From contig CALWSP010000001.1 of assembly GCA_944384235.1 (NCBI GenBank), positions 62,001 to 126,000 of the forward strand: a DNA stretch of 64,000 bases, given 5' to 3'. The notes under the pieces were generated by a model that saw only the letters and a list, made by a program, of their open reading frames with translations, had not been told where the DNA came from and did not search any database. A program made the translations under genes and the position numbers. Each line of letters starts with the position of its first letter. The stretch's first letter is position 1. Below are positions 1,977-64,000 of this stretch, in pieces. The DNA is from an uncultured Clostridia bacterium. Lineage in GTDB: Bacteria > Bacillota > Clostridia > Lachnospirales > CAG-274.

Positions 1977-4094
1977 TTGTCAAAGACTAGAGTTTATGAA
2001 ATAGCAAAGACATTAGAAATTAGTAATAAAGAGCTTCTTGCAAAGCTAAAGGAATTAGGTATTGAGGCTAAAAGCCACAGTAGTAGCCTTGAAGATGAAG
2101 ATGTGAACAAGGTGTTAGATTATTTTTCTGAAAGCGAAACTAGTGTGGATAGCGAAAGTGAAAATGTTAATAATAATGTAGGTGAGGTAGCTCCAAAAGT
2201 GGTTGAAGAAAAGATTGAAAATTTAGTATCTGATGAAGATAGTTCATCTAAGAAAAAGAAGAACAAGAAAAATAAGAAAAACAAGAATAAGAATTTTAAT
2301 CAAGCAGATGTTCAGCCAACAAGCAACGATGAAGCTGATGAAATTTTAGAAATTCAAATAGCTGATAGTATTATTGTTAAGGAGCTTGGGGAAAAGATTA
2401 ACAAGCCTGCTTCTGCTATTATTATGGAGCTTATGAAAATGGGCGTTATGGCTAGCGCAAACCAAGAAATTGACTTTGAAACAGCTGAAAAAGTTTGCGA
2501 AACATTTGATATTATTGTTGAAAAAGCTGAAGAAATTGATTTATTAGAAGAAGCATTTAGAGAGGAAGTTGACGCTGAGGAGGATTTAGAGGAAAGACCT
2601 CCAGTTGTTGTAGTTATGGGTCACGTTGACCACGGTAAAACTTCTTTATTAGACTCAATAAGACATTCTCGTGTTACTGCCAAAGAGGCTGGTGGTATTA
2701 CTCAGCATATTGGTGCGTATACAGTTTCTATTGATGGAAAGCCTATTACTTTCCTTGACACTCCTGGACACGAAGCGTTTACTGCTATGAGAATGAGAGG
2801 TGCTCAGGTTACAGACATTGCTATTTTAGTTGTTGCTGCTGATGACGGTGTTATGCCTCAGACTATTGAAGCTATTAACCACGCTAAAGCTGCTGGTGTT
2901 GAAATTATTGTGGCTATTAACAAAATTGATAAGCCTGGCGCAAACCCAGACAGAGTTAAGCAAGAGTTAGTTGAGCACGGCTTAATTAGCGAGGAGTGGG
3001 GTGGCGACACAATTTGTGTTCCTGTTTCTGCTTTAAGCAAGGAGGGTATTGACAACCTTCTTGAGATGATTATTATTGTTGCTGAAATGAAAGAGTTAAA
3101 GGCAAACCCTAACAAGAGAGCTAGAGGAAACATTATTGAAGCTCAGCTTGACAAGGGTAGGGGTGCTGTTGCAACAGTTCTTGTTCAAAGCGGTACTCTT
3201 AGCATTGGTGACCCTATTGTTGCTGGTTCATCTTATGGTAGAATTAGAGCTATGATGAACGACAAGGGGCAAAAGGTTAAAAAAGCTGGACCATCTATGC
3301 CAGTTGAGATTTTAGGACTTAACGAAGTTCCTATGGCTGGCGATATGTTCTATGTTGCTGAAAATGAAAAGCAGGCTAGACAGGTTGCTGAGTCTGTTAT
3401 TGCAAAAAGCAGAGAAGAACTTATTAAAGAAACTCCTCAAAAAGTTAGCTTAGACGACTTATTTAGCCAAATTCAAGCTGGTAATGTTAAAGAGCTTAAC
3501 ATTGTTATTAAGGCTGATGTTCAAGGTTCTGTTGAGGCTGTTAAGCAAAGTCTTGAAAAGCTTTCTAACGATGAAGTTAGAATTAGAACTATTCACGGCG
3601 GTGTTGGCGCTGTAACTGAGTCTGATGTTATGCTTGCTAGTGCATCTAATGCTATTATTATTGGTTTTAATGTTAGACCTGAAGCTTCTGCTAAAAATGT
3701 TGCAGACGACCAGAAAGTTGACATTAGATTATACAGAGTCATTTACAACGCAATTGAAGATATTACAGCTGCTATGAAGGGTATGTTAGACCCAGTTTAC
3801 GAGGAAAAAGTTTTAGGTCACGCTGAAATTAGACAGTTATTTAAGGCTAGTGGCGTTGGTACTATTGGTGGTTCTTATGTAACTGACGGTAAGTTTGTTA
3901 GAAACGCTAAAGTTAGAATTATTAGAGATGGCGTTGTGGTTTATGACGGCGAGTTAGCTACACTTAGAAGATTTAAAGACGATGTTAAGGAAGTAAGCGC
4001 TGGTTACGAGTGTGGTTTATTATTTAACAAGTTTAATGATATTAAGGAAGGCGATGTTGTTGAAGCCTTCATTATGGAGGAAATAAAGCGTTAA
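1977..4094 (+). CDS. infB: Translation initiation factor IF-2
   Basis: This GTPase delivers fMet-tRNA to the 30S subunit. From the TTG at 1977 ([11 protein letters not shown]) it has 705 residues: an IF2-N domain, a lysine-rich linker with [12 protein letters not shown], a second IF2-N-like segment, then the G domain. G1 GHVDHGKT starts at residue 215, with G3 DTPGHEA and G4 NKID after it. Domains II, III and the fMet-tRNA-binding C2 domain complete it. A GTG at 1968 lies inside the GGAGG ribosome site, so TTG 1977 is the better start. Its TAA shares a base with the rbfA ATG. Confidence 0.97.
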
Positions 4095-4450
4095 TGAAAA
4101 CAAGTAACAGAATGATTCGTATTAACGACGAAATCAAAAAGGAACTTTCTGAAATTATTAGAGCAGATTTAAAAGACCCTAGAGTGGGCGTTATAACTTC
4201 AGTGCTTAAGGTTGAAACAACAAACGACCTTAAGTACTGCAAAGTTTATGTTAGCATTCTTGGAGATGAAGAAAAGAAAAAAGAGGTTATGTCAGTTTTA
4301 AAGGGTGCTGCTGGTTTTATGAGAAGCCTTATTGCTAGAAGAATTAATTTAAGAATTACTCCTGAATTAAATTTTATTCAAGATGATTCTCTTGATTATA
4401 GCTTTAAAATTGATAAGATTTTAAGAGAGATTAATAATCCTGAAAAATAG
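4094..4450 (+). CDS. rbfA: 30S ribosome-binding factor RbfA
   Basis: A 118-residue KH-type protein that binds immature 30S subunits and assists 16S 5'-end maturation and cold adaptation. The family patterns RMIRINDEIKKELSEII, DPRVG and the C-terminal LNFIQDDSLDYSFKID are visible. The ATG overlaps the infB stop in a TAATG junction, so translation is probably coupled. Confidence 0.96.
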   Translation: MKTSNRMIRINDEIKKELSEIIRADLKDPRVGVITSVLKVETTNDLKYCKVYVSILGDEEKKKEVMSVLKGAAGFMRSLIARRINLRITPELNFIQDDSLDYSFKIDKILREINNPEK

Positions 4451-4461
4451 GAGGTGTTTTT

Positions 4462-5415
4462 ATGTATGAAAACTCTATTATAAAGGATATTAAAGATGCT
4501 GAAGTTATTTGTATAACTGGGCATATAAACCCTGATGGAGATTGTATTGGTTCTAACTTTGCTTTTGCTAAGGCTATGTCTAAGCTTGGCAAAAAGCCTT
4601 ATGTATTACTTGGCGATTTTAATGAAAAATTTGATAGTTTAAGCGGAAGCGAGTTTTTATACAAGGGGGACTACAATTTATTAAACCCTGATGTTATATT
4701 TTCTATTGATTGTGGCGACAAGGCTAGGCTTGGCGAAGCAGAGGCTGTTTTTGACAGAGCTAAGATAACTTACAATTTAGACCACCATATAAGCAATGAT
4801 AATTTTGCTATGAACAACATTGTAAATGTTAAGGCGTCTTCATCTTGTGAAGTTGTGTATGAAGTTATTAGCCAATTTATTGAAATAGACAAGGAGATAG
4901 CAACAGCTTTATATGTTGGCATATTAACAGACACTGGTGGATTTAGACACAACTGCACTTCAGAAAGAACTCATCAAATAGCTGGAAAGTTAGTTAGCAT
5001 TGGTGTGGATACACCTGAAATTCACAACAAGTTCCTTATGGAACATTCATTAATTGATGCAAAAATTTTTGCTAAGGCTATTAGCAAAATGAAAGTTGAG
5101 GACAAAATTGCAACAACTTTTGTTACTGAAGATGAAATGACTGAGTGTGGGGCAACTGCAAAAAATACAGACGCTATTGTGGGATATCTTTTAAACACTG
5201 AGGGTGTTGAAGTTGCTATTTTTGCTAGTGAAAGAGGAAATGGCTTAGTTAAATTAAGTTTTAGGTCAAAGAGTTTAAATGTGAACGAAGTTGCTTCTTT
5301 ATATGGCGGCGGAGGGCATATATTAGCTGCTGGCGCTGGTGTTGAAGGAAGTATTTGCAAAGTATTAGATAGTGCAATTTCTGAAGTTAGGAAAAGGCTT
5401 TATGAAAAACGATAA
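4462..5415 (+). CDS. nrnA: DHH-family bifunctional oligoribonuclease/PAP phosphatase NrnA
   Basis: A 317-residue DHH/DHHA1 phosphoesterase. Metal-binding motifs are visible in order: GHINPDGDCIGS (about residue 20), the SIDCGD motif, LDHHISND (the DHH triad) and a C-terminal GGGGHILAAGAG DHHA1 motif. Family members degrade nano-RNA and dephosphorylate 3'-phosphoadenosine 5'-phosphate. It follows rbfA in the usual Firmicute order rbfA-nrnA-truB and overlaps truB by 14 bases. The AGGAGGTG ribosome site is strong. Confidence 0.93.
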   Translation: MYENSIIKDIKDAEVICITGHINPDGDCIGSNFAFAKAMSKLGKKPYVLLGDFNEKFDSLSGSEFLYKGDYNLLNPDVIFSIDCGDKARLGEAEAVFDRAKITYNLDHHISNDNFAMNNIVNVKASSSCEVVYEVISQFIEIDKEIATALYVGILTDTGGFRHNCTSERTHQIAGKLVSIGVDTPEIHNKFLMEHSLIDAKIFAKAISKMKVEDKIATTFVTEDEMTECGATAKNTDAIVGYLLNTEGVEVAIFASERGNGLVKLSFRSKSLNVNEVASLYGGGGHILAAGAGVEGSICKVLDSAISEVRKRLYEKR

Positions 5416-6307
5416 TTCATTAATTGGTGTTATAAACATTTACAAGGAAAAGGGCTTTACATCTCACGATGTTGTAAACATTGTTAGAAAAAGTTTGAAC
5501 AGGGTTAAAACTGGGCATACTGGAACTTTAGACCCTGATGCCGAAGGGGTTTTGCCTATTTGTATAGGCAAGGCAACTAAATTAGCTGATTACATTGCTT
5601 CAGATATTAAAGAGTATAAAGCTGAGATTACTTTTGGTTTAAAAACAACTACTGAAGATATATCTGGGGATATTATTGAGAAAAAAGATGTTTGTGTGTC
5701 TGATGATGAAATTAGAAAGGCTATATTAAGCTTTTTAGGAGATAATTATCAGACACCTCCTATGTATTCCGCTATTAAAGTTAACGGAAAAAAGCTTTAT
5801 GAACTTGCTAGAGAGGGCAAGGAAATAGAGAGAAAAAGCAGAAAAATTTTTATTTATGAAATTAGAGATATTAAGCGTTTAGCATTTGACAAGTATGAGT
5901 TTAAGGTTTTATGTTCTAAAGGAACTTATATTAGAACTTTATGTAAAGACATTGGTGAAAAACTTGGTTGTGGCGCTTGTATGTCAGATTTGACTAGAAC
6001 TAGAAGTGGAAATTTTTATATTGAGGACAGTATAAAAATAGACGAGTTTAAAAAATTGGTGGCAAATGGGGAGCTTGATAAAATAATAATGCCTGTTGAA
6101 AGAGTTTTAGAAAAATACAAAAAGGTATACATAAGCTCTTTAGCTGAAAAGTTTGTTGAAAACGGAAACAAAATAAGTTTGAATTTTTTAAATGATGAAA
6201 AACTTATTGAAAACGAAGTTGTTTTAGCTATTGACTGGAACAACAAAATTATTGGGCTTTATAAAGTTTTAGGAGAATGTATTAAGCCTTTGACTAGGTT
6301 AATTTAG
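5402..6307 (+). CDS. truB: tRNA pseudouridine(55) synthase TruB
   Basis: Makes pseudouridine 55 in the T-loop of tRNAs. The 301-residue protein from ATG 5402 has the TruB motif GTLDPDAEGVLP with the catalytic Asp at residue 44, then PPMYSAIKVNGKKLYELAREG and the KGTYIRTLCKDIG motif. The frame is open upstream to 5372, but MKNDNSLIGVINIYKEKG is the family start and lies inside the end of nrnA. The C-terminal region (about 220-300) is divergent. Confidence 0.96.
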   Translation: MKNDNSLIGVINIYKEKGFTSHDVVNIVRKSLNRVKTGHTGTLDPDAEGVLPICIGKATKLADYIASDIKEYKAEITFGLKTTTEDISGDIIEKKDVCVSDDEIRKAILSFLGDNYQTPPMYSAIKVNGKKLYELAREGKEIERKSRKIFIYEIRDIKRLAFDKYEFKVLCSKGTYIRTLCKDIGEKLGCGACMSDLTRTRSGNFYIEDSIKIDEFKKLVANGELDKIIMPVERVLEKYKKVYISSLAEKFVENGNKISLNFLNDEKLIENEVVLAIDWNNKIIGLYKVLGECIKPLTRLI

Positions 6308-6315
6308 GTGATAAT

Positions 6316-7266
6316 ATGAAAATAATTGAGTCTGAACAATTTAATATTGATAGGCCATCAGCTGTTACTATTGGTAATTTTGATGGTGTTCATTTAGGGC
6401 ATCAGGAGCTTGTTAAAACTGTTTTGGAGTATTCAAAAAAAGAGAATTTGACAAGTGTTGTATTTTCTTTTAACCCACACCCTGTTGAGTTATTAAACAA
6501 AAAAGACGATTTTAAGCCTATGCTTTGTGTTGAGGAAAAAAAGTTAGTTATTGAAAAGCTTGGTGTTGATATTCTTATTCAATATCCTTTTAGTTTGGAA
6601 TTTGCTTCTCTTTCCCCAGAAGAATTTATGGACTTATTAATTAAAAAGACTAATTGCAAGGTTTTAGTTGTTGGCGAAAACTATTGTTTTGGGAAAAACA
6701 GAGTGGGAAACATTGAAACTTTAAAAAAGCTTGGTAAAAGCCGAAATGTTAAAGTAGTTGGTATTCCTAGAGTTAAAATTAACGACGTTAGAGTTAGTAG
6801 CACTAGAATTAGAAACCTTATTTTAGACGGGGATATGGAGCAGGTTACTAAGCTTTTAAAAAAGCCTTATTTTGTTATGGGTGAAGTTGTTGACGGGGAC
6901 AAAAGAGGCAGAATTATTAATTTTCCAACAATTAACATTGAGCCACCTATTAAAAAACTATTACCACCTGATGGGGTATATTTTTCAAGGGTGTGTATTG
7001 ATGGAAAGTTTTATAACGGTATGTCTAACATAGGCAAAAACCCTACTTTTGACGGCGAAAAAAGAAAAATTGAAACTCATATTTTTGAATTTAATGAAGA
7101 TGTGTATGGAAAGACAGCTATTGTTTTTATATACAAAAGAATTAGAAACGAAGTTAAGTTTGAAGGAATTGAAAAACTGGAATTACAACTTAAAAAGGAC
7201 AAGGAAATTTGTTTAAACATTGCCAAGGAAGGTTTATTTAAGGAGTTTGAGGGTGAAAGAAAATAA
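6316..7266 (+). CDS. ribF: Bifunctional riboflavin kinase/FAD synthetase
   Basis: Converts riboflavin to FMN and then FAD. The N-terminal nucleotidyltransferase domain has GNFDGVHLGHQELV and the SSTRIR loop. The C-terminal flavokinase domain (about 185-310) has the GDKRGRIINFPTIN motif. The 316-residue length is normal. It directly follows truB, as in most Firmicutes, and its last 14 bases overlap the next gene. Confidence 0.96.
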   Translation: MKIIESEQFNIDRPSAVTIGNFDGVHLGHQELVKTVLEYSKKENLTSVVFSFNPHPVELLNKKDDFKPMLCVEEKKLVIEKLGVDILIQYPFSLEFASLSPEEFMDLLIKKTNCKVLVVGENYCFGKNRVGNIETLKKLGKSRNVKVVGIPRVKINDVRVSSTRIRNLILDGDMEQVTKLLKKPYFVMGEVVDGDKRGRIINFPTINIEPPIKKLLPPDGVYFSRVCIDGKFYNGMSNIGKNPTFDGEKRKIETHIFEFNEDVYGKTAIVFIYKRIRNEVKFEGIEKLELQLKKDKEICLNIAKEGLFKEFEGERK

Positions 7267-8314
7267 TAAAATTTTTGGTTTAGATTTGATTAGAGTTTTA
7301 TCAATGTTTTTTGTTATTTTTTTACATTGTTCATCAAACAGGCTAAGAGTTGGAATGGAGAGTTTTGGCTGGGGTATAGCAAACTTTATAACATCTTTTT
7401 CAACTTGTGGAGTTCCTTTGTTTTTTATGATTTCAGGAGCTTTAATTTTAAATAGCAAAAAAACATATGATATTAGTTATGTTTTAAAAAACAGAGTTAT
7501 TAGGCTTATTATTCCGTTGGTTTTTTGGTCATTTATTGCTTTATTGGTTAAGTTTTATGTTGATAGCAAGTTAGTTTTTTCAATTGAAAATTATTACAAC
7601 GAATTTATTCAAATTTTAAACAAGCCTATTGCCGTTCATTTTTGGTTTATGTATTATTTAATACCTATTTATTTAATTTCTCCTGCTATTAAGGTTTTTG
7701 TTGACAATGCTGGGGAAAAAATGGTTTTATATATTATATTTTTATGGATTATTCAAATATTATCTTATTCTTTTTCGGGCATAATAAAAGAGCCAAGCCA
7801 AGCAGCTTTTTTATCAATAGCTTTTATTAAAAACATTGGGTTTTTAAGCGGGTATTTAGGCTATTTTATTTTAGGTTTTGTTTTATTTAACAAAGATATT
7901 TCTATTAACAAAGGTGTTTGTTTATTTATAGCGTTTTTTATGGCGATTTTTATATCTATTGGCACTAAGGCTATAAGTGAATACAACGGGTTTTATACTG
8001 AAAGTTTTAAGTCGTACAAAAGTATTTTTGTTTGTTTAATTTCTATTATGATTTTTATTGTTTTAAAAGATTTTAAAAATTCAAACAAGTATTTTAAAGC
8101 TTTAATTAACATTTTAAGTCCTATATCTTATGGAGTGTATCTTTGCCACAACATTTTTTTAGATGTTATAAACTATTTTGGTGTTAGAAACTATACTATT
8201 TTACAAGTTAGTTTAAGTTTTATTTTAGTTTCTTTTATATCTATATTTACTATTTTTGTTTTTAGCAGAACAAAAGGGCTTTCGTTTTTATTTAACGGAA
8301 GTAAAAAATTGTAA
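7253..8314 (+). CDS. Acyltransferase-3 family integral membrane protein
   Basis: A 353-residue polytopic membrane protein of the acyltransferase-3 (OafA/WecH-like) family. These proteins move acyl groups onto cell-envelope sugars or lipids. It shows the family start FGLDLIRVLSMFFVIFLHCSS, whose Arg and His residues are catalytic in relatives, and about ten hydrophobic segments. GTG at 7253 has an AAGGAG site seven bases upstream inside ribF, so it is read as the tail of the ribF operon. The substrate cannot be inferred. It interrupts the usual ribF-rpsO adjacency. Confidence 0.82.
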   Translation: MKENNKIFGLDLIRVLSMFFVIFLHCSSNRLRVGMESFGWGIANFITSFSTCGVPLFFMISGALILNSKKTYDISYVLKNRVIRLIIPLVFWSFIALLVKFYVDSKLVFSIENYYNEFIQILNKPIAVHFWFMYYLIPIYLISPAIKVFVDNAGEKMVLYIIFLWIIQILSYSFSGIIKEPSQAAFLSIAFIKNIGFLSGYLGYFILGFVLFNKDISINKGVCLFIAFFMAIFISIGTKAISEYNGFYTESFKSYKSIFVCLISIMIFIVLKDFKNSNKYFKALINILSPISYGVYLCHNIFLDVINYFGVRNYTILQVSLSFILVSFISIFTIFVFSRTKGLSFLFNGSKKL

Positions 8315-8330
8315 AAAAATAAAAAAAGAC

Positions 8331-8359
8331 TTGAAATTTTTAAACATATATGTTATTAT
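8331..8359 (+). promoter_or_regulatory. Promoter of rpsO
   Basis: TTGAAA (8331-8336) and TATTAT (8354-8359) are spaced by 17 bases, a good vegetative sigma-A promoter. Transcription should start near 8366, giving a leader of about 100 bases before rpsO. Confidence 0.7.
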
Positions 8360-8366
8360 ACATATT

Positions 8367-8430
8367 GTGCTTAAGCACTATGTAATACCTATGTTCAGAG
8401 TTCGGATTCTCCGACCTTCTCTTAGCATAA
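8367..8430 (+). promoter_or_regulatory. Structured rpsO leader, candidate S15 autoregulatory site
   Basis: The leader begins with the palindrome GTGCTTAAGCAC (8367-8378). A nested hairpin follows: TATG and AGAG (from 8388) pair with CTCT and CATA (to 8427) around an inner stem TCGGA-TTC-TCCGA. S15 represses its own translation through leader structures in many bacteria, so this is a plausible autoregulatory element. No known S15-leader class could be matched by eye. Confidence 0.45.
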
Positions 8431-59771: not shown

Positions 59772-59800
59772 TTGAAAAATGAAAATTAATTTGGTATAAT
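59772..59800 (+). promoter_or_regulatory. Promoter of the cohesin-SLH gene
   Basis: TTGAAA (59772-59777), 17 bases, and an extended -10 TTGGTATAATTAG (TATAAT 59795-59800). The -10 neighbourhood matches that of the next gene (61383-61388) at 12 of 13 positions. Confidence 0.8.
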
Positions 59801-59832
59801 TAGAGTATATTTTTAAATATGAGGAGGTATTT

Positions 59833-61218
59833 ATGTTAAAGAAAGTTTTTTCTGGCTTTTTAGCAATGACTTTAGCTTGTTCTATGCCTATGTATAGTTT
59901 TGCTAAAGATAGCATTGAAATTAGCTGTGAAGTGTCAAAGGACAATTTAAAGGTTGGAGATGTTTTTTATGCTGATTTTAAGGTGAATGAAAACCCAACT
60001 GGATATTTAAGTATGCAGTGTTTTATTGACTATAATTCAGATGTTATTCAAGCTATTGATTGCGATGTGGAGGATATACCTAGTGATTTAATTATTTACA
60101 CTGACAAAAACGATGTAAATCACTCTATGTTCCCATATTTTAATGTAAATGATAGAGTTAACTATGTTCCTAAAAAAGCTGACAGCGACTATTTAGGAAA
60201 GGCTGACGGTGTTAAAACTGCTGGCGAGATTGGTAGAATTAAATTAGCTAACCTTTTAAATGTTAGAGATGAAGAAGGCTCAAGAATTAATTACGAGGGC
60301 AATGGAACATTAATTAGAATGAAGTTTAAGGCTATTGACGAGGGCGAAAGCAACATTGAGATGAATGATGTTATTGGAAGTTTTAACAACAGCGAGGACA
60401 AAGACCAAGACATTTTGGTTAATGTTTCAAGTGGAAGTGTTAAAGTTTCTAAGGACAGTTTAGAAAACACAACTGAAAGCACTACTGAAAGCACAACTAC
60501 AAGTCAAAACGGCTCATCATCAGGTGGCAGCAGTGGTGGTGGAGGTGGTTCTTCATCAAGTGTTACAACAACTGAAGCAAATACAAGCGAGGCTACTACT
60601 GAAAGCACAACAGATGTTATTATTGGTGGAAGTGATGAAAGCACAGGAATTGTTGTTGAAAAAACTTTTACTGATGTTAGCAAAGACTACTGGGGATATG
60701 AATATATTTCTAAATTAGCTAACAAGGGCATTGTTAACGGATATCCAGATGGCTCATTTATGCCAAACAGTAATGTAAAAAGAGCAGACTTTATTATTAT
60801 GGTTTTAAAGGGAATTGGTGTGGACACTAGCCAAGCTACTTTATTTACAAACTTTAACGATGTTCAAAGCAACGCTTATTATGCAAATGCTTTAGCTATT
60901 GCTAAAAACATTGGTATAGCTAAGGGCAACCTTAATGGCGGTTTTGAGCCTAATTCGTTTATAACTAGAGAAGATATGATGCTTATAGCTAAAAGAGCTT
61001 TAGAATACAAGTTAGGCGAAAATATAAATGGCGATGTGAAAGTTCTTGACCAATTTAGCGACAAAAACGACGTTGCAAGCTATGCAGTTGAAGGACTTTC
61101 TGCTATGGTTTCTGAGGGACTTGTTAATGGTATGAATGGAAAAATTAACCCTAAATTAAACACTACAAGAGCTCAAGCAAGCGTTGTTATAGCTAAAATG
61201 TTAGATAAATTAAATTAA
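59833..61218 (+). CDS. SLH-anchored surface protein with a cohesin-like domain
   Basis: A 461-residue secreted protein. A signal peptide (cut near residue 24, SFA-K) precedes a cohesin-like domain (about 29-205) with DNLKVGDVFYADFKV, LSMQCFIDYNSDVIQ, GTLIRMKFKAI and VSSGSVKVS. A Thr/Ser/Gly-rich linker (about 212-275) leads to three SLH repeats (about 278, 341 and 409 onward: FTDVSKDYWGYEYI, FNDVQSNAYYANAL, FSDKNDVASYAVEG) that anchor to pyruvylated wall polymers. Cohesins bind dockerins, and the next gene carries a dockerin-like motif. Confidence 0.82.
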   Translation: MLKKVFSGFLAMTLACSMPMYSFAKDSIEISCEVSKDNLKVGDVFYADFKVNENPTGYLSMQCFIDYNSDVIQAIDCDVEDIPSDLIIYTDKNDVNHSMFPYFNVNDRVNYVPKKADSDYLGKADGVKTAGEIGRIKLANLLNVRDEEGSRINYEGNGTLIRMKFKAIDEGESNIEMNDVIGSFNNSEDKDQDILVNVSSGSVKVSKDSLENTTESTTESTTTSQNGSSSGGSSGGGGGSSSSVTTTEANTSEATTESTTDVIIGGSDESTGIVVEKTFTDVSKDYWGYEYISKLANKGIVNGYPDGSFMPNSNVKRADFIIMVLKGIGVDTSQATLFTNFNDVQSNAYYANALAIAKNIGIAKGNLNGGFEPNSFITREDMMLIAKRALEYKLGENINGDVKVLDQFSDKNDVASYAVEGLSAMVSEGLVNGMNGKINPKLNTTRAQASVVIAKMLDKLN

Positions 61219-61223
61219 ATTTT

Positions 61224-61262
61224 AAGGTGTAATTAATTTGAACATTAATTACACCTTTTTTT
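61224..61262 (+). terminator. Terminator after the cohesin-SLH gene
   Basis: A 14-bp perfect stem AAGGTGTAATTAAT/ATTAATTACACCTT with a 6-base loop and a T-run. Confidence 0.92.
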
Positions 61263-61359
61263 CATATTTTATATTAGGTTAACAAAGAAAAGGGTTGGAA
61301 TATGTTAAAAATGTTAAAAAAACTTAATAAAGATATTTTAAATTAATTAATAATGAATA

Positions 61360-61388
61360 TTGTATTTTTATAGAAAAAATGGTATAAT
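61360..61388 (+). promoter_or_regulatory. Promoter of the dockerin-containing surface gene
   Basis: TTGTAT (61360-61365), 17 bases, extended -10 ATGGTATAATTAG (TATAAT 61383-61388). The leader can form TATAGAT/ATCTATA inside AAATAAA/TTTATTT. An AAAGGAG site precedes the ATG. Confidence 0.75.
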
Positions 61389-61449
61389 TAGTATAAATAA
61401 AGGTGTATAGATTTTATCTATATTTATTTTAAAGAAAAGGAGAAAATAT

Positions 61450-64000
61450 ATGAAATATCGTAAATTACTAAGTGGTATTTTAAGCTTATCAGTAGTTTGC
61501 ACATCAATAACTCCGAATATTGCTTTTGCAAATGAGGGTGTTGTTGTAGAAGCAACAGATGAAAGTTCATCTGAAAGTAATGCTGAAAGAAAAGGTAGCA
61601 TAACTTTATCTGTAAGTTTTAGTTTACCACAAACAAAGGAAAAAGTAGCATCTAGAAATTTAAAGTTAAAAGTTGTGAACAAAGACAGTGGTAGCTCAAA
61701 AGAAATTATTTTATCTAACAACACTGACTCAGATGTTGTAGTTACTGAATTAAATGTGTTAGGTGAGCAAATTACAACTGAATCTAGAATTGGTGCTTAC
61801 AAAATTGAAGTTAACAACTTACCTGTTGGCGAGTATAAGTTAGAGTTAACTGGCGATGGATATGTTACAGCTTCTAAAGATGTGACTTTAGACAAGTATT
61901 CTCAATTTGTTCAATTAGACAACGCTAATGGTAGCTATTCTATTGGTGATGTTAACGGCGATAATATTATTGACAACAAGGACTTAGATTTAATTTCTAG
62001 CGCTTTAAAGACTAACGACACTAGTTTAATTGACAAGTATGACTTAAATGGCGACGACAAAGTTGATATTGTTGACTTAACATATGCCAATATGACTAAG
62101 GGTGTGTCTGCTGACATTATCTCTATTGACACTGTTTACATTGATGTTCCAGAAGTTGACACTACTAACTTAAATGTTGAGGGTGATATTTCTGACATTT
62201 TTGAAGAAAACAATGTAAACCCTGTTATTTTAAGCTCTGCTTCAGAAAACACTCCTATTGAGTTAGATATGAACATTCCTGATGAGGGTGTTGAGTTAAG
62301 CGAGATTAACATTGTTGCTCCTCAAAATGATGGTGGTATTGAAGGCGGTAAAATTATTATTGAAACTGAAAGTGGAGAGTTAATTGAGCAACCTTTTGGC
62401 AACCACAACGAAAATGCTTATGTAGAGCAACAAGAAGAAGTTAAAGAAGAAACTATAGTTGAGGACAATGAAGAAGTTCCAGCTGAAGAAGTTGAAAGCG
62501 AAGTTTCTGATAGTGTTGAAACTCCAGTTGAGGAAGTTGAAAGCGAAACTATTGAGAGCGTTGAAGAAGCTCCAGCTGAAGAAGTTGAAAGCAGCGAACC
62601 TATTTTAGTTGAGGATAGTGAAGTTACAAATGCAGAAGTTAGCCAAGAGGAAGCTGAAGAAGTTCACTATTTATTAAGAAACGCTGATGAAAATGTTATT
62701 AACATTAACTTAGAAAAGAGAGTTGTTGTTAAGAGAGTTACAATTCAAGTTACAAAGGTTGTTGGAGAGGACGGAACTCCAGATTATGCTTCTGTATCAA
62801 GAATTGAATTTATTAAGAACATTGTTCCTGAAGGAGCTCTTGAGGACACTACTAAGGTAAACAACGTTTCTGCTAAAGAAAAGGACGGCGAAATTGAGTT
62901 AATTTGGAGTGCTGTAAACAATGTTGAAGGGTATACAGTTAGATATGGTACTAGCAAGGATAATTTAACTAGTGTTGCAACAACAAACACAAACAGCATT
63001 GTTATTGACGGTTTAGACAACAATGTTACATACTATTTCTCTGTTACTGCAACTAGCAACGGTTGGGCTGGCACAGCTTCTGACATTATTAGTGCTACAC
63101 CGCTTCCATCTAGCGTGCCTGGCTTAGTTTCTAACATTAATGTTGAAGCTGCTGACGGCCGTTTAACATTAAAGTGGAATGAAATTAAAAATGCTGTATA
63201 CTACCAAGTATTTTACAGAGAAAAGGGTGCAAGCGAGTTTATTAATTTTGGCGACAACTTAGTTAACACAACTGCAACTATTACAAACCTTACAAATGGC
63301 GTTACTTATGAAATTGCTATTAAGGCTGGTAACACTGTTGGTTTAGGTGAATATTCTGAAATTATTGAGGCAACTCCTAAGGTTGAGGAAATTGAATTAC
63401 CTAAATTCCCAGAAAACGGAAGATTAAACGCTTCTGAAATTATTGAGTCTATTAAGATGACTAACAGCAACAACGTTGACAAAACTCTTTGTCCTAACTT
63501 TGATGTAAGTCACCTTATTGACGACAACGCAAACACATATTGGGTTGCTGCAAAGTGGTGGGAGAGCAGTGATATTACTTACACATTTAAGACACCTCAA
63601 AAGATGAACTATCTTTTATTTGCACCTTACCTTAACGGAAACCACAAAACTTGTATAAGCCATTACAACATTACTGCTCGTGATGAAAATGGAAATGTTC
63701 TTTTTACATTAAAAAACAAGGCTGTTTCTTCATTAAATGCTGACAATTATATTATTGTTAAATTCCCTGAAACTGACAACATTAAGAGCATTACTCTTGG
63801 TCTTGCTGAAAAAGCTGGTGGCGGAGCTCGTGTAAGTATTTCTGAGATTGCTTTCTATGAAAGTTCTTCACTTGCTAACGACATTGCTGCTTTATTTAAA
63901 GACGGCGCATTTACTCAATTAGCTGATGGCGTTGACGAAGCTAAGATTGTGGCTTTAGAAGAACAGTTAAATGAAATGAAGAACTACTATATTGATGTAG
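61450..64000 (+). CDS. Large secreted surface protein with dockerin-like, FN3 and discoidin-like domains (3' truncated)
   Basis: 850 codons are visible with no stop; the gene continues past the window. A signal peptide (cut near residue 27) is followed by a beta-sandwich region (about 45-160) and a dockerin-like pair (about 164-220) with DVNGDNIIDNKDL (Asp167) and DLNGDDKVDIVDL (Asp198). An acidic Glu-Val-Glu-Ser repeat segment (about 310-410) and two fibronectin-III domains (about 467-551, 556-643) come next. A discoidin-like region (about 670-800, IDDNANTYWVAAKWWESSDI) follows. No catalytic domain is seen in the visible part. Confidence 0.78.
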   Translation, partial: MKYRKLLSGILSLSVVCTSITPNIAFANEGVVVEATDESSSESNAERKGSITLSVSFSLPQTKEKVASRNLKLKVVNKDSGSSKEIILSNNTDSDVVVTELNVLGEQITTESRIGAYKIEVNNLPVGEYKLELTGDGYVTASKDVTLDKYSQFVQLDNANGSYSIGDVNGDNIIDNKDLDLISSALKTNDTSLIDKYDLNGDDKVDIVDLTYANMTKGVSADIISIDTVYIDVPEVDTTNLNVEGDISDIFEENNVNPVILSSASENTPIELDMNIPDEGVELSEINIVAPQNDGGIEGGKIIIETESGELIEQPFGNHNENAYVEQQEEVKEETIVEDNEEVPAEEVESEVSDSVETPVEEVESETIESVEEAPAEEVESSEPILVEDSEVTNAEVSQEEAEEVHYLLRNADENVININLEKRVVVKRVTIQVTKVVGEDGTPDYASVSRIEFIKNIVPEGALEDTTKVNNVSAKEKDGEIELIWSAVNNVEGYTVRYGTSKDNLTSVATTNTNSIVIDGLDNNVTYYFSVTATSNGWAGTASDIISATPLPSSVPGLVSNINVEAADGRLTLKWNEIKNAVYYQVFYREKGASEFINFGDNLVNTTATITNLTNGVTYEIAIKAGNTVGLGEYSEIIEATPKVEEIELPKFPENGRLNASEIIESIKMTNSNNVDKTLCPNFDVSHLIDDNANTYWVAAKWWESSDITYTFKTPQKMNYLLFAPYLNGNHKTCISHYNITARDENGNVLFTLKNKAVSSLNADNYIIVKFPETDNIKSITLGLAEKAGGGARVSISEIAFYESSSLANDIAALFKDGAFTQLADGVDEAKIVALEEQLNEMKNYYIDV

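Follow-up and report, generated by a model that had tools for sequence, protein, structure and literature searches.

In Clostridium thermocellum, type II cohesins that are anchored to the cell wall by surface-layer homology (SLH) domains are bound by type II X-dockerins, and single-cohesin SLH anchors such as SdbA and OlpA are a known type. The locus compared here with these and other described systems lies at the end of a 64,000-nucleotide stretch (the window) of contig CALWSP010000001.1, positions 62,001 to 126,000 of the forward strand, from the genome of an uncultured Clostridia bacterium. It comprises gene A, which encodes a cohesin-SLH protein; gene B, which encodes a long X-dockerin protein and runs past the end of the window; and gene C, the gene directly behind gene B. 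Together, genes B and C probably make up a portable kit of two genes by which a peptidase of the M60 family is displayed through cohesin-dockerin binding. An earlier note on this DNA had suggested a miniature display system of this kind with the gene A product as the receptor for the gene B product; the general idea fits, with gene C rather than gene A as the most likely partner. The same note had regarded the single cohesin of gene A as a departure from a classical scaffoldin, which is not unusual in view of SdbA and OlpA. Genes A and C both have the architecture of these two anchors, the predicted cohesin of gene C belonging to a distinct, shorter family.

The type II X-dockerin-SdbA pairs of C. 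thermocellum/Acetivibrio (2b59, 5g5d, 5k39, 4u3s) resemble the B-C pair in that the client carries an X-module plus a dockerin with two calcium loops and the wall receptor is an SLH-anchored single cohesin (SdbA). In contrast to those pairs, where the X-dockerin belongs to a cellulose scaffoldin, the gene B X-dockerin stands N-terminally on a metallopeptidase; the gene C cohesin lacks a Pfam signature, with a modelled fold nearer to non-cellulosomal cohesins, and most genomes with a B-C pair have this one dockerin only. The modelled gene C fold is closest to the X82 cohesins of the C. perfringens cohesin-dockerin enzyme complexes (2jh2, 2vo8, 2ozn), which are also non-cellulosomal and belong to a host-glycan context. 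The C. perfringens cohesins sit on glycoside hydrolases (PMC12997984), whereas the gene C cohesin would belong to an SLH wall anchor devoted to the client encoded next to it.

Cohesin-dockerin display has also been proposed for mucin degradation by gut Clostridia in the case of the Limousia mucinolysome (2026), which includes dockerin-bearing peptidases; Limousia ET540 has a multi-enzyme system with scaffoldins and 21 dockerin-bearing carbohydrate-active enzymes, and the text mentions neither M60 nor SLH (PMC12997984). Unlike a cellulosome or mucinolysome, with a multi-cohesin scaffoldin and several dockerin enzymes, the B-C pair consists of one enzyme and one single-cohesin anchor. The 2012 paper on M60-like/PF13402 metallopeptidases, which have a peptidase and accessory domains in common with gene B, lists two dockerin-bearing proteins and also SLH-bearing ones; its text mentions no cohesin and describes no two-gene anchoring system (PMC3267712). 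Membership of the M60 family is the basis for a probable mucin-type glycoprotein substrate (PMC3267712). No paper describing the B-C pair was found in the open-access library that was searched, from which most subscription journals are absent.

An X-dockerin peptidase and the gene behind it

Gene B encodes a predicted secreted metallopeptidase of the M60 type (HExxH) that carries a type-II-like X-dockerin at its N-terminal end, together with fibronectin type III and F5/8C-like accessory domains. The M60 domain (residues ~1120-1294, motif HEIGHNMD) lies beyond the window and scores 70.6 bits against PF13402, where the cut-off is 25.8; residues H358, E359 and H362 and the downstream E371 are invariant in 12 sequences. 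The earlier note had recognized two dockerin calcium motifs about 31 residues apart, internal and near the N-terminus, and this description holds: the loops DVNGDNIIDNKD and DLNGDDKVDIVD are both of the 12-residue dockerin type and are spaced by exactly 31 residues. It had also listed fibronectin type III and discoidin-like domains. Two of the former were recovered, and the F5/8C match is weak here (17.7 bits against a cut-off of 28.2), with homologues exceeding the cut-off at a different position. The X-module preceding the dockerin was absent from that note, as were the M60 peptidase and the third, SLH-bearing gene, both beyond position 64000.

The Dockerin_1 match scores 19.7 bits against a cut-off of 22.9 for the window protein alone, and 22.9 bits, just at the cut-off, in the genome search. 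Among homologues of the gene B X-dockerin, Dockerin_1 is matched by 72 of 73, and a strict motif search recovers both calcium loops in 57 of 77. Structure prediction bears out the dockerin assignment and points to the type II X-dockerin class. An AlphaFold2 model built from 73 sequences has a predicted local distance difference test score (pLDDT) of 94.8, and each of its ten Foldseek matches in the PDB at E<=0.001 is a type II X-dockerin or a chain that includes one (among them 5k39_B, E 1.2e-7; alignments of 182-190 columns among the top ten). The sequence profile likewise points to type II X-dockerins, and the model and Foldseek matches place the X-module directly N-terminal to the dockerin.

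Gene C (L009:7151-8584, 477 residues) starts 19 nucleotides after the gene B stop codon, with a ribosome-binding site, and encodes a cohesin-like N-terminal domain (residues ~36-152), a linker and three C-terminal SLH domains. It matches a profile of the N-domains of such downstream genes with an E value of 1e-18. A model of this C-type N-domain (~120 residues), made from the L100 homologue with 69 sequences, has a pLDDT of 95.5 and nine strands. Cohesins take the first 12 places among its Foldseek matches in the PDB, with C. perfringens 2jh2 (E 8.8e-5) and Archaeoglobus fulgidus 2xdh at the top. As modelled, the domain is a cohesin fold nearest to the non-cellulosomal cohesins, and is not a member of PF00963.

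The conserved pair is B-C, not A-B. A scan of named genomes yielded 563 relatives of the M60 core, from which 80 loci were fetched by M60 similarity, mostly from Flavonifractor, Pseudoflavonifractor, Butyricicoccus, Anaerotignum and other gut Clostridia. An X-dockerin near the N-terminus is present in nearly all 80, and a same-strand SLH gene follows in 73, mostly within 25 nucleotides or overlapping. The N-domain profile also picks up the downstream genes at L111, L163, L171 and L172, the L171 partner having an apparent transmembrane tail in place of SLH domains. A gene C equivalent, with a secreted and usually SLH-anchored product, is thus the next gene in all 77 evaluable loci, the three others ending at a contig border. 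Twenty carrier genomes were searched for dockerins and cohesins: Dockerin_1 was found in 19 and occurs exactly once in 15, and a Pfam cohesin is absent from 15. In 14 of the 15 single-dockerin genomes the dockerin is that of the X-dockerin-M60 protein, as judged from frame length and position; these include G070, where the frame is shortened and its place is that of the X-dockerin-M60 locus, and exclude G066, where the single match lies elsewhere. The same arrangement is seen within the family of our organism in four genomes of genus g7, each of which has a B-type gene with a C-type gene right behind it (truncated at the contig border in one of them); there, too, this dockerin is the sole one, and no Pfam cohesin was found. 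The two-gene kit is conserved in many gut Clostridia without a cellulosome, and the orphan dockerins of such bacteria, which had no obvious partner before, now have a concrete candidate in the product of the next gene.

Other genera of the family have X-dockerin-M60 proteins of 2,000-2,200 residues that end in a domain related to the gene C N-domain, followed by SLH domains in four genomes. The fused terminal domain aligns with the C-type domain in hhalign (P 91.9%, E 7e-7), and the C-domain profile scores 13.6-19.6 bits in five fused proteins, where the background maximum is 7.4. Profile comparisons with 4-8 C-type sequences gave no match; with 69 sequences they match the fused domains, still not gene A. 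Together, the fusions and the neighbouring genes show that the X-dockerin and the cohesin-fold domain occur together, either in one chain or adjacent. In a survey of 61 genomes, the C domain was present along with the M60 core in 12, alone in one and missing from six with the M60 core, and 42 had neither (Fisher p 1.2e-7, an optimistic value since the genomes are related); several of the six M60-only genomes hold the fused domain, at weaker scores. As a separate observation, the X-dockerin-M60 homologue at L086 (G016) is interrupted by one in-frame stop, possibly an assembly error or a pseudogene.

In a tree of M60 sequences, gene B groups with the Butyricicoccus-type sequences L100, L103, L110 and L124 (support 0.96), apart from its own family. 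Derivation from genus g7 of the same family was considered and rejected on this placement. Along with the position of genes B and C next to gene A, described below, the tree suggests that the pair was acquired by horizontal transfer, with our genome as the apparent recipient.

Gene A, a probable separate anchor

Gene A is probably an independent SLH anchor with one cohesin that has been inherited vertically and beside which genes B and C were inserted, a view that forms part of the B-C reading and is equally likely. The domain order that the earlier note gave for it (cohesin-like domain, Ser/Thr/Gly linker, three SLH anchors) was correct. The SLH domains match PF00395 (E 2.1e-33), and a 7-sequence profile of the N-terminal domain matches type II cohesins in the PDB (ScaB 3l8q, E 1.4e-7; SdbA 5g5d, E 5e-4). 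Pfam searches for the two partners that the note had envisaged gave a split outcome: the gene B dockerin reached the cut-off in the genome search (see above), whereas the gene A N-domain (~180 residues) fell below it, scoring 11.5 bits against PF00963 in the genome search and showing no Pfam match at E<=1 in hmmscan of the protein. Some gene A orthologues pass the PF00963 cut-off, and the domain aligns with a cohesin region of another scaffold in the same genome (contig C14; BLASTP E 2e-9). Judged through these relatives and the profile, the domain is classed as a cohesin on sequence grounds.

Most genera of the family have gene-A-like proteins of 400-550 residues, whose genes in several of these genera stand behind the same EcfT-TruA-MltG-OMT-U32 set. 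Co-conservation of genes A and B in related genomes, which the earlier note's pairing implied, was looked for and is absent. Among relatives, 25 gene A loci were compared, and a B homologue adjoins gene A in none of them; in four congeners gene A is directly followed by a 157-residue gene that here comes after gene C, so that genes B and C look inserted between gene A and its usual neighbour. Nor was there a positive association across 32 family genomes, seven of which have both gene A and an X-dockerin-M60 gene, 17 gene A only, seven the X-dockerin-M60 gene only and one neither. Between genes A and B lies a terminator-like hairpin which, if it acts, would separate them transcriptionally. Gene A was therefore rejected as the partner of gene B on the evidence of synteny, co-occurrence and transcription units; the clients of its cohesin are probably other dockerins.

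The resemblance of the extended -10 regions of genes A and B, which the earlier note had remarked on, is real (12 of 13 bases) and is weak evidence, since eight of the matching bases make up the extended -10 consensus TGnTATAAT; 4 of 100 shuffles equal the match. The shared boxes were accordingly set aside as a sign of co-regulation. In another genome (G022, L072:4526-6711), the gene behind the gene A orthologue encodes a 274-residue protein with a gene-A-like cohesin plus a dockerin, apparently an adaptor scaffoldin.

Proposed surface display and the competing explanations

In the proposed mechanism, the X-dockerin of gene B would clip into the cohesin of gene C in a calcium-dependent manner, and the SLH domains of gene C would hold the complex on the cell wall, so that the M60 peptidase could work at the surface, probably on host mucin-type glycoproteins. 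If this is true, it would be a way for gut commensals to keep a peptidase with predicted mucin activity on their own surface, and would provide a cohesin family absent from Pfam as well as a compact, naturally transferred enzyme-display pair. A bolder proposal, possible but doubtful, is that the C domain founds a cohesin family unseen by sequence searches and serves as the specific receptor for an orphan X-dockerin that is widespread on M60 peptidases of gut Clostridia. Under this proposal the fused relatives, with X-dockerin and cohesin at opposite ends of a 2,000-residue protein, would dock head-to-tail, either closing into a clasp or assembling themselves into chains on the surface.

Several observations weigh against B-C docking. 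Neither operon linkage nor co-occurrence is independent of phylogeny, and M60 similarity was the criterion for picking the 80 loci; the distance matrices of X-dockerins and C domains show a partial correlation of 0.37 against 0.23 and 0.18 in controls, a slight excess. In genome G007 a C-type gene stands behind an unrelated gene with no B gene upstream. Some fused homologues have SLH domains of their own, so that the X-dockerin is unnecessary for anchoring there. The fold assignment of the C-type N-domain has its own difficulties. Template modelling (TM) scores against cohesins are moderate (0.44-0.65 to the query), and YcnI and CBM2 beta-sandwiches appear lower down among the matches. Pfam Cohesin finds none of 69 C-type N-domains at E<=0.1, which places them outside PF00963; a PDB sequence search returned no cohesin and two unrelated adhesin matches (E ~0.5), and none of the sequence profiles ties the domain to known cohesins. 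It is on account of the Pfam result, the lack of a PDB sequence match and the moderate TM-scores that the domain is named a cohesin fold and not a PF00963 cohesin.

Another reading is that the C domain and the X-dockerin are functionally unrelated, gene C being a co-transcribed wall protein whose beta-sandwich binds carbohydrate or the C-terminus of the gene B product. The CBM2 and YcnI folds and the missing cohesin signature agree with this, but the first 12 structural matches are all cohesins, and only coincidence would then bring a dockerin together with a cohesin fold in each of these operons; we consider this reading highly improbable. Also unlikely, to a lesser extent, is a purely structural or regulatory role for the X-dockerin-like module within the M60 protein (e.g. 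as an intramolecular, calcium-stabilised cap), with no cohesin bound in trans. The module is indeed kept in homologues with their own SLH anchors and where the genome lacks a Pfam cohesin; however, it is nearly always found with a cohesin-fold domain, either fused or in trans, and it matches complete X-dockerins, beyond the EF-hands alone. Docking of the gene B X-dockerin on the gene A cohesin at the cell surface draws support from the type II class of both modules, by profile or structure, from the presence of both genes in one genome, and from the C. thermocellum precedent. It seems improbable given the locus and co-occurrence counts, the hairpin, the conserved neighbourhood in which gene A resides in several genera, and the existence of B-type proteins in genomes without a detected cohesin.

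Features of the window and other dockerins of the genome

Features of genes A and B within the window
Feature	Position	Strand	Basis
Gene A promoter-like element (TTGAAA-17-TATAAT, TG before -10)	59772..59803	+	consensus matches 11/12
Gene A: signal peptide, type-II-like cohesin, Ser/Thr/Gly linker, three SLH (461 aa)	59833..61218	+	
Gene A putative cohesin domain (aa 26-206)	59908..60450	+	
Gene A three SLH domains (aa 278-461)	60664..61215	+	Pfam search
Intrinsic-terminator-like hairpin between genes A and B (14 pairs, then T-run)	61224..61257	+	
Gene B extended -10 element ATGGTATAATTAG	61379..61391	+	
Gene B, N-terminal 850 of 1726 aa inside the window; continues past 64000	61450..64000	+	
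Gene B X-module, PEGA-like beta-sandwich (aa 46-163)	61585..61938	+	
Gene B dockerin (aa 164-222), two intact calcium loops	61939..62115	+	
Gene B two fibronectin type III domains (aa ~471-641)	62860..63372	+	Pfam search
Gene B F5/8C (discoidin)-like domain (aa 685-787), weak here	63502..63810	+	Pfam search

The genome (1.75 Mb, 99% complete) was scanned for further dockerins and does contain others: there are five above the Pfam cut-off in all, and two proteins with cohesin matches, that of gene A being weak. On contig C14 (L010:644-3337 and 3553-8424), a dockerin-bearing pectinesterase/GDSL protein has as its neighbour another SLH scaffold, in which one Pfam cohesin and one further cohesin-like region are recognized. 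Two pectate lyases also carry dockerins (L011:3965-7246, with CBM77, and L012:4680-6785), as does a fourth protein of pectate-lyase-like appearance (L013:7188-10508). The C14 scaffold and these four dockerin proteins look like a small pectin-degrading cohesin-dockerin system. The pectin-type dockerins of L010, L011, L012 and L013 have the motif QKVxDS in the last helix in common, and its absence from gene B is consistent with a different cohesin specificity. Sister genera in the same family (G013, G021 and G028, family f1) have 55-60 dockerins each, so that the family is rich in cohesin-dockerin systems, and genus g7 has the M60 one only.

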